In this document: positions 3,040-4,439 of the stretch, piece after piece
Layout of the letters: every line of letters begins with the position of its first letter
Position numbering within the stretch: the stretch's first letter is position 1
From: a virus
DNA: 41,458 nt
Virus record (IMG/VR): IMGVR_UViG_3300045257_000156
Location: 1-41,458 of that record
Direction: 5' to 3' (one strand)
Notes under the pieces: model-generated
Seen by the model: only the letters and a program-made list of their open reading frames with translations
Database searches by the model: none
Told to the model about the DNA's origin: nothing
Program-made: the position numbers and the translations under genes

Positions 3040-3227
3040 GCGACCACGAGACACCTGACCACGCCACTATTCTGAGGCGCATCGTCATGGCGTGGGATAC
3101 CGACGACTCGTTGGAATTTCTCGCCGGTCTGCACCACGCCCGCCTCGTCTTGGGTTTGAAACGCGCCGATACGCGCGAGGAAGCGGAAGACATCGCCGTC
3201 TTGAAGGCGAACGGCTATCAGCCATGA
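3036..3227 (+). CDS. Small hypothetical helical protein (63 aa)
   Basis: ATG overlaps the upstream stop (ATGA) and its own stop overlaps the next small start. Predicted to be mainly helical, with a His/Asp-rich N-terminus ([16 protein letters not shown]) and an [10 protein letters not shown] segment. No cysteines, no membrane segment, family not recognised. Confidence 0.65.
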
Positions 3228-3271
3228 CCTGGCTCGCCTACCTGCTCGGCGGGATCGCAGGGGCGGCATGA
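3224..3271 (+). pseudogene. 15-codon remnant of the small membrane-protein gene at 4257
   Basis: ATG to TGA encodes [15 protein letters not shown], nearly the same as the start of the protein at 4257 (MTWLFYLLGGICVAGV). The first 33 bases of the two sites differ at only about five positions. Each copy has an ATGA junction, one just before the methyltransferase gene and one at its end. The methyltransferase gene therefore lies between two copies of one gene start, as expected after insertion or duplication. Confidence 0.7.
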
Positions 3272-4260
3272 CGGTGGGGAGTTTATTTGCGGGGATCGGC
3301 GGGTTCGATCTGGGCTTCGAACGGGCCGGGTTTGAGATTCGCTGGCAGGTAGAAATCGATCCGTTCTGTCGGGCGGTGCTGGCGAAACATTGGCCGGAGG
3401 TGAGGCGGTACGAGGATGTCCGACAAGTTGTGGTCGACGCCGACGCGGGGCGACTCGTGGGCACCGTCCACGCCAGCGAGCGAGCAACGCGAATGGAGCA
3501 AGAACAACCTGCGGGGTGTGGCGGCAGCGGACATCGAGATCGACTCGAGCCAGTTGACGTTGTTTGCGGAGGCTTTCCCTGTCAACCGCACTCGCTCGCT
3601 GGCCGACGACTGGGTGCCGCCGACGAACGCGACCTCTGGCCCGAGTGTGCTCGATTGCTTCGCGAGCTTAGGCCCCGATGGGCGGTTTTTGAAAACGTAC
3701 CCGGACTGCTCTCCGCAGATGCTGGACGGTTCTTCGGAGGCGTTCTCGGAGACCTGGCCGCGTGCGGGTATGACGCGGAGTGGGATTGCTTACCAGCGAG
3801 TGCCTTCGGCGCCCCTCACCAGAGAGATCGCGTCTGGCTGGTTGCCTACCCCAACGGCGAGCGATGGTACGACGGGGCAAGTTTTGAACGACTCGACGGA
3901 GATCCGATGGTTGCCCTCGGGAAACCCCCGGAAGATCAGCAATCAAGGCGTGGATGGATCGGTGGGCTTAGCGCGGCATGTGCTGTTGACGCAGTGGCCA
4001 ACGCCGAGTGCGCAACAGCAGAGCGGCGGGACGACGGGACTGAACGGCGGCAGCGGGGCACGGGCGAAACTCCGCGCCTTAGTTGGACGCGAGGAATCCT
4101 TGCTGATGGCTGGTGGGCAATTGAACCCGACGTGGGTCGAGTGGCTCATGGGGTATCCGCTCGGGTGGACCGTCTGCGAGGCTTGGGCAACAGCATCGTC
4201 CCGCAGATCGCGGAATGGATCGCCCAGCGCATCCTCCAGGCGGAAGGGCTAGCCGCATGA
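3268..4260 (+). CDS. DNA cytosine-5 methyltransferase (330 aa)
   Basis: Transfers a methyl group from S-adenosylmethionine to cytosine C5 in DNA. Visible motifs in order: I, LFAGIGGFDLGF (6-17); IV, GGFPCQPHS with catalytic Cys105; VI, FENV (141-144); VIII, QRDRVW (185-190); and X, GNSIVPQ (307-313). The target-recognition region between VIII and X is short and unusual. The stretch between motif I and motif IV also seems longer than typical. Both unusual regions lie over a second long frame (3416-4252). The likely role is protecting phage DNA from host restriction. ATG overlaps the upstream remnant's stop, and the end overlaps the next gene. Confidence 0.9.
   Translation: MTVGSLFAGIGGFDLGFERAGFEIRWQVEIDPFCRAVLAKHWPEVRRYEDVRQVVVDADAGRLVGTVHASERATRMEQEQPAGCGGSGHRDRLEPVDVVCGGFPCQPHSLAGRRLGAADERDLWPECARLLRELRPRWAVFENVPGLLSADAGRFFGGVLGDLAACGYDAEWDCLPASAFGAPHQRDRVWLVAYPNGERWYDGASFERLDGDPMVALGKPPEDQQSRRGWIGGLSAACAVDAVANAECATAERRDDGTERRQRGTGETPRLSWTRGILADGWWAIEPDVGRVAHGVSARVDRLRGLGNSIVPQIAEWIAQRILQAEGLAA
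3416..4252 (+). CDS. Out-of-frame overlapping gene inside the methyltransferase: GMTRSG / LNPTWVEWLMG family (278 aa)
   Basis: This frame lies wholly inside the methyltransferase gene, shifted by one base. It carries signatures of a phage and prophage protein family often seen beside cytosine methyltransferases: GMTRSG (118-123), PTPTASD (144-150), WPTPSA (194-199) and LNPTWVEWLMGYPLGWT (236-252). ATG at 3416 follows GGAGGTGAGG at 3396-3405, a plausible ribosome binding site. Random shadow frames do not carry a full ordered set of family motifs. Function unknown; a link to DNA modification is inference. It might also be a relic of a methyltransferase whose end lay in this frame. Confidence 0.6.
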   Translation: MSDKLWSTPTRGDSWAPSTPASEQREWSKNNLRGVAAADIEIDSSQLTLFAEAFPVNRTRSLADDWVPPTNATSGPSVLDCFASLGPDGRFLKTYPDCSPQMLDGSSEAFSETWPRAGMTRSGIAYQRVPSAPLTREIASGWLPTPTASDGTTGQVLNDSTEIRWLPSGNPRKISNQGVDGSVGLARHVLLTQWPTPSAQQQSGGTTGLNGGSGARAKLRALVGREESLLMAGGQLNPTWVEWLMGYPLGWTVCEAWATASSRRSRNGSPSASSRRKG

Positions 4261-4439
4261 CGTGGCTCTTCTATCTCCTCGGCGGGATCTGTGTAGCGGG
4301 GGTGGTGCTGGCGCTCACGATCTGGGGGAGTCAGCCGCCGAAGGGTGAGAGGCTAGACGACGACGAAGACCTCTATGCGCGCGTGGACAGACGCGGGAAG
4401 TCCCCTCGCTTCGGTACCGCAGGGAAAGACAAGGGGTGA
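4257..4439 (+). CDS. Small single-pass membrane protein (60 aa)
   Basis: The N-terminus is one hydrophobic segment (MTWLFYLLGGICVAGVVLAL) followed by a charged tail with DDDED and a basic C-terminus. A truncated copy of its start lies at 3224. ATG overlaps the methyltransferase stop. Possibly an inner-membrane accessory; function unknown. Confidence 0.65.
   Translation: MTWLFYLLGGICVAGVVLALTIWGSQPPKGERLDDDEDLYARVDRRGKSPRFGTAGKDKG

Follow-up and report, generated by a model that had tools for sequence, protein, structure and literature searches.

A phage C5-cytosine methyltransferase probably divided between two proteins encoded in overlapping frames on the same bases

A methyltransferase gene of a tailed phage almost certainly encodes two proteins on the same bases, here called alpha and beta. 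We consider it highly probable (roughly 0.88) that the locus specifies an M.EcoHK31I-type C5 methyltransferase built as a heterodimer. In the proposed arrangement, one C5-cytosine DNA methyltransferase would be encoded as two polypeptides: alpha would supply the AdoMet-binding and catalytic domain, with motifs I–VIII closed by motif X, and beta, which would begin inside alpha at its own Shine-Dalgarno sequence and ATG and be read in the +1 frame, would bring motif IX and probably the target-recognition region. Both would be translated and would assemble into an active enzyme, whose most likely role would be to protect the DNA of the phage from host restriction by methylating it.

The window, the whole stretch of DNA analyzed here, comprises the 41,458 bases of a virus record, and all positions given for this locus refer to its numbering. 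It carries genes typical of tailed phages, including a terminase large subunit, a major head protein, an endolysin, an Erf-like annealing protein and a replication initiation protein. An initial sequence-only reading had described an open reading frame of 278 codons, shifted by +1, within the methyltransferase gene, and both reading frames are present:

3268–4260, forward strand: alpha, C5 cytosine methyltransferase polypeptide, 330 aa (PF00145, E 1.6e-44; phrog_363, E 2.7e-80)
3283–3306, forward strand: alpha motif I, LFAGIGGF (from the translation; conserved in A2)
3396–3403, forward strand: candidate Shine-Dalgarno sequence of beta, GGAGGTGA (read directly; 12 nt before the ATG at 3416)
3416–4252, forward strand: beta, PHROG 1008 family protein, 278 aa, +1 frame (phrog_1008, E 3.3e-25; recoding tests; homologues in +1)
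3536–3829, forward strand: conserved N-terminal half of beta, residues 41–138 (overlaps alpha motifs IV–VIII; N-half recoding test)
3568–3588, forward strand: alpha motif IV with the catalytic Cys, GGFPCQP (P104, C105 and Q106 invariant in A2)
3691–3699, forward strand: alpha motif VI, ENV (E142 and N143 invariant in A2)
3823–3837, forward strand: alpha motif VIII, RDRVW (R186 and R188 invariant in A2)
3830–4120, forward strand: variable region of beta with PTP motifs, putative target-recognition region (hhalign to the VIII–X segment of single-chain actinophage enzymes)
3839–3865 and 3995–4012, forward strand: beta PTP motifs WLPTPTASD and WPTPSA, within the variable region
4121–4171, forward strand: motif-IX-like element of beta, LNPTWVEWLMGYPLGWT (near-invariant in 64 homologues; resembles canonical motif IX)
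4132–4176, forward strand: alpha VGRVAHGVSARVDRL (same bases as the motif-IX-like element of beta; conserved in A2)
4186–4206, forward strand: alpha motif X, GNSIVPQ (weak alignment with M.HhaI 300–318; the profile matches motif X of single-chain forms)

The shifted frame carries GMTRSG, PTPTASD, WPTPSA and LNPTWVEWLMGYPLGWT in the order first described. The last of these had been said to share its bases with the C-terminal end of the methyltransferase; it shares them with VGRVAHGVSARVDRL, and GNSIVPQ follows just downstream. Two claims had to be revised. The main frame had been credited with all core C5 methyltransferase motifs, yet alpha has no recognizable motif IX; it is the +1 frame that contains a motif-IX-like element. 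The beta family had been described as usually adjoining C5 methyltransferases, but it sits inside the gene and no free-standing copy was found; the PHROG 1008 profile had no match in 14 control genomes. The view of alpha as a complete methyltransferase with beta as its neighbor thus gives way to one in which beta resembles the portion of the enzyme that alpha lacks.

The methyltransferase motifs are split between the two frames. A profile of alpha aligns with residues 13–179 of M.HhaI (motifs I–VIII) and weakly with residues 300–318 (motif X), and gave no match to residues 180–299, which hold the recognition domain and motif IX. The C-terminal end of beta, LNPTWVEWLMGYPxGWT, is near-invariant among 64 homologues and resembles canonical motif IX, as in the LSPLECERLQGFPDGWT of locus L224; this match is short: of 24 ordinary enzymes, 12 had their best site where motif IX should lie, compared with an expectation of about 16%. 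Between their motifs VIII and X, single-chain actinophage enzymes contain a PTPxAxD region and the sequence LxPxFxEWMMGxPxGW, both within a single frame. The second half of beta aligns to this VIII–X segment (hhalign, probability 97.6, E 4e-12), and alpha, compared with the same part, aligns solely to motif X. A structural model of a single-chain enzyme aligned with M.HhaI over its length (Z 23.5, rmsd 3.1, 236 aligned residues), with the PTP region itself unmodelled. In L187, alpha ends after motif VIII and the +1 protein holds the PTP region, motif IX and motif X. No locus combines a main-frame motif IX with a full beta: the latter is present in none of the 21 loci with an in-frame motif IX, and beta is found in 131 of 132 loci with the RVAxG tail, the one left over being a scoring artefact.

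Searches with beta matched no Pfam family or solved structure, and its profile, run against solved structures, did not find a methyltransferase directly. The AlphaFold prediction of beta alone was poor (pLDDT 57.6, pTM 0.24). Since the PTP region was also unmodelled in the single-chain form, target recognition by beta is argued purely from position. Among mycobacteriophage-type loci, the PTP–IX–X module was seen in +1 or +2 (L274, L275, L277, L279) versus frame 0 (L249, L254), which suggests either that the module has switched frames or that the records contain frameshifts.

Selection acts on both frames. The recoding tests redistributed the codons of alpha among positions with an identical residue, so that neither the main-frame protein nor its codon usage changed, and then scored the +1 frame afresh. 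For cross-validation, a beta profile was built from 35 low-GC loci and tested on 50 others with 100 recodings each: the observed +1 frame scored above all 100 recodings in every one of the 50 loci (138 versus 37 bits). The +1 frame of the window reached 133 bits with this low-GC-trained profile, its 100 recodings having a mean of 37 and a maximum of 68. In a set of loci selected with alpha only, the observed frame exceeded all 60 recodings in 70 of 70, and bacterial alpha/beta loci gave 25 of 25 above every recoding. The signal extends along the protein, with the profile of the N-terminal half scoring above every recoding in 46/50 and 64/70 loci and that of the C-terminal half in 50/50 and 70/70. 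An intact methyltransferase paired with a broken shifted frame, the counter-evidence named at the outset, did not appear in the 70 alpha-selected loci, which have 0 stops in the beta frame against 4.5 expected. By comparison, 28 ordinary methyltransferases had no excess (median z about 0; stops 16.6 versus 17.7). Beta matches of 20–45 bits in ordinary bacterial methyltransferases were rejected as by-products, with a recoding z of about 0.

In the actinobacterial and actinophage loci L249–L266, L183, L201 and L236, motif IX is already in the main frame. Many of these single-chain enzymes keep a partial beta-like +1 frame with scores exceeding those under recoding (median z about 3). It may be left over from an ancestor with the overlap, or it may be a partial beta that is still used.

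Substitution patterns bear on the same question. Across 66 independent pairs, the divergence of alpha at fourfold sites was 0.486 upstream of the overlap, 0.299 inside it and 0.439 beyond it (p 3e-22 and 2e-6, with sites pooled and treated as independent). In the seven closest pairs, changes at alpha positions 1/2/3 numbered 12/4/50 before the overlap and 63/10/38 within it, a shift from alpha position 3 to position 1, which is position 3 of beta (p 9e-8). The window compared with 49 relatives gave rates of 0.62 before, 0.45 within and 0.46 in the short stretch after the overlap, these comparisons not being independent of one another; the single pair of the window and L011 showed no clear difference (6/17 versus 18/56). 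Together, the recoding tests and the depressed fourfold-site divergence in the overlap bear out the earlier proposal of a second, selected gene in the +1 frame.

Beta probably has an independent start inside alpha. The ribosome-binding sequence reported upstream of the shifted ATG is indeed there, at 3396–3403, with a rather long spacing of 12 nt. Start sites of this kind are enriched: 51 of 85 loci have a Shine-Dalgarno match of at least 5 nt ahead of an ATG or GTG close to where beta begins, and 17.5 are expected under recoding. Many low-GC loci have AAGGAG 7 nt ahead of an ATG, and four relatives of the window (L009, L011, L016, L018) have an ATG in the same context as its beta start.

The alpha/beta arrangement is widespread, being kept by hundreds of phages and by many bacteria, and is mostly missed by annotation; Lacticaseibacillus phage R23.9 is one phage with the pair. 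At eight annotated phage loci, from phages of Microcystis, Lacticaseibacillus, Paenibacillus, Acinetobacter, Mycobacterium, Bacteroides and others, the methyltransferase is in frame 0 and a relative of beta in +1 in all eight; the Moonbeam locus has just the first part of a beta relative in +1. Together with 80 loci from an IMG/VR scan with the shifted protein and the window itself, these make up 89 beta-selected loci, of which 87 have the +1 overlap. L026 and L038 looked like exceptions, but in each the two readings change frame close together, as if a single indel had disrupted the pair. Because this set had been chosen by the shifted protein, a second scan was made with the main-frame alignment alone; all 80 viral loci it returned have similarity to the beta family in +1. 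A few of the 80 are truncated, weak or broken; the selection test drew on the 70 that cleared stricter filters. The expectation that other phages would keep both families in this overlap was thus borne out. L141 had scored as an alpha without beta, an artefact of its two overlapping alpha/beta pairs in tandem (positions 133–1952 of that locus).

Bacteria of many phyla have the overlap in their genomes as well. Several of the records inspected, among them an E. coli prophage, annotate just one of the two proteins. Two E. coli prophages, L284 (3002–3739) and L285 (2503–3264), hold the pair, with alpha only annotated in RefSeq; the pair is intact in L284, and in L285 the alpha and beta frames are both broken at nearly the same place.

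Two features of the flanking sequence were also recorded. A 34-nt direct repeat, 85% identical between copies, flanks the methyltransferase gene at 3223–3256 and 4256–4289 and may be the footprint of a cassette insertion or duplication. The 15 residues and stop encoded by the upstream copy are an abbreviated form of how the downstream open reading frame begins, MTWLFYLLGGIC... The DUF6745 protein at 1802–2842 (PF20530, E 1e-47) has a long run of repeats before its domain, at about 1990–2300; these are 12-nt units, open in other frames too.

Three other explanations were weighed. In the first, the shifted frame is never translated and merely follows from the conserved sequence of the methyltransferase and the codons it uses. 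Recoded main frames do keep about 37–85 bits against the beta profiles, so this resemblance is partly forced by alpha, and chance open reading frames are longer at high GC. The by-product explanation is nevertheless scarcely credible: observed scores lie above every recoding in all full-length tests, the beta frame stays open in low-GC loci (0.44–0.50), ordinary methyltransferases have no excess, and the fourfold sites of alpha are depressed in the overlap only. Programmed ribosomal frameshifting, joining motifs I–VIII of alpha to the second half of beta, draws on the mycobacteriophages, where the same PTP–IX–X module occurs in frame 0 (L249, L254) or +1 (L274, L275, L277). We regard it as very unlikely, given that the first half of beta, absent from such a product, is conserved beyond what alpha imposes (the 46/50 and 64/70 loci above) and that start sites with a Shine-Dalgarno match are enriched; moreover, motif X is in the alpha frame, so that a single frameshift would lose it.

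A genuine overlapping gene could also have a separate function, for example as a methylation-linked inhibitor or an anti-restriction protein, beta then being no subunit of the methyltransferase. In keeping with this, beta matched neither a solved structure nor a Pfam family, and its N-terminal half has no known relative. Yet the second half of beta lies in frame inside single-chain methyltransferases and in an AquI-like split locus (L187), alpha lacks a recognizable motif IX, and the occurrence of the two is strictly complementary, which makes a separate function highly improbable. The heterodimeric methyltransferase is the reading that we retain.

On a broader scale, we lean slightly towards the dual-frame split C5 methyltransferase being an old, stable and very widespread phage architecture, found across many host phyla and interconverting with single-chain enzymes as the module of recognition region plus motif IX switches frame. 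If so, the architecture would be no oddity of one restriction-modification system. It is difficult to prove that a long stretch of one strand encodes two proteins that are both under purifying selection, and most demonstrations concern single cases; the rarity that the sequence-only reading attributed to double coding applies to dual coding in general, but not to the alpha/beta family. More than 160 loci constitute a natural experiment: the two products appear to be parts of a single active enzyme, and a change in one frame can therefore affect both. The origin and stability of overlapping genes thereby become testable with comparative data. As only one protein is annotated in several records, cloning of such genes may leave out an essential half.

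M.EcoHK31I is known as one laboratory precedent, and the spread of the dual-frame arrangement was not previously known. M.EaeI is likewise a two-polypeptide C5 methyltransferase. The small subunit of M.EcoHK31I is said, in work by Lee and co-workers from 1995, to be coded in another frame inside the gene of the large subunit; by that account the window is alike, with 3416–4252 under selection in +1 within 3268–4260. The larger M.EcoHK31I subunit holds motifs I–VIII and X and the assigned target-recognition domain, and the smaller one motif IX; in M.AquI, catalytic motifs are in one chain and motif IX is in the other (PMC3404938). Because alpha of the window has motifs I–VIII and X and lacks IX, and beta, with its motif-IX-like element, lies inside alpha, the locus matches the M.EcoHK31I kind both in how its motifs are divided and in how its two chains are encoded. 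The two differ in context, a phage here and a restriction-modification system there, and the apparent breadth is wider here. The recognition region also differs, being apparently in beta (L187 and the single-chain forms point to this) instead of the larger subunit, and beta has a further conserved N-terminal half besides its motif-IX part, relative to the description of M.EcoHK31I. L187 has the layout of M.AquI, with the same beta family as the window; in M.AquI motif X is in the beta chain, unlike the window, where it is in alpha, and motif X was found in the smaller polypeptide only in L187 and some actinophages. The single-chain actinophage enzymes (mycobacteriophage Moonbeam, L006, L249) have PTPxAxD and LxPxFxEWMMG elements homologous to the second half of beta, but carry all motifs in one frame, with a partial +1 beta-like frame that lacks motif IX. 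Among the papers searched, none dealt with dual-coded phage methyltransferases and none stated dual coding or a subunit role; some submitters and PHROGs do label both frames as DNA methyltransferase. The gene pairs of Paenibacillus larvae phages, both members of which are annotated 'DNA cytosine methyltransferase', belong to the same beta family, PHROG 1008, and have the same overlap as the window.
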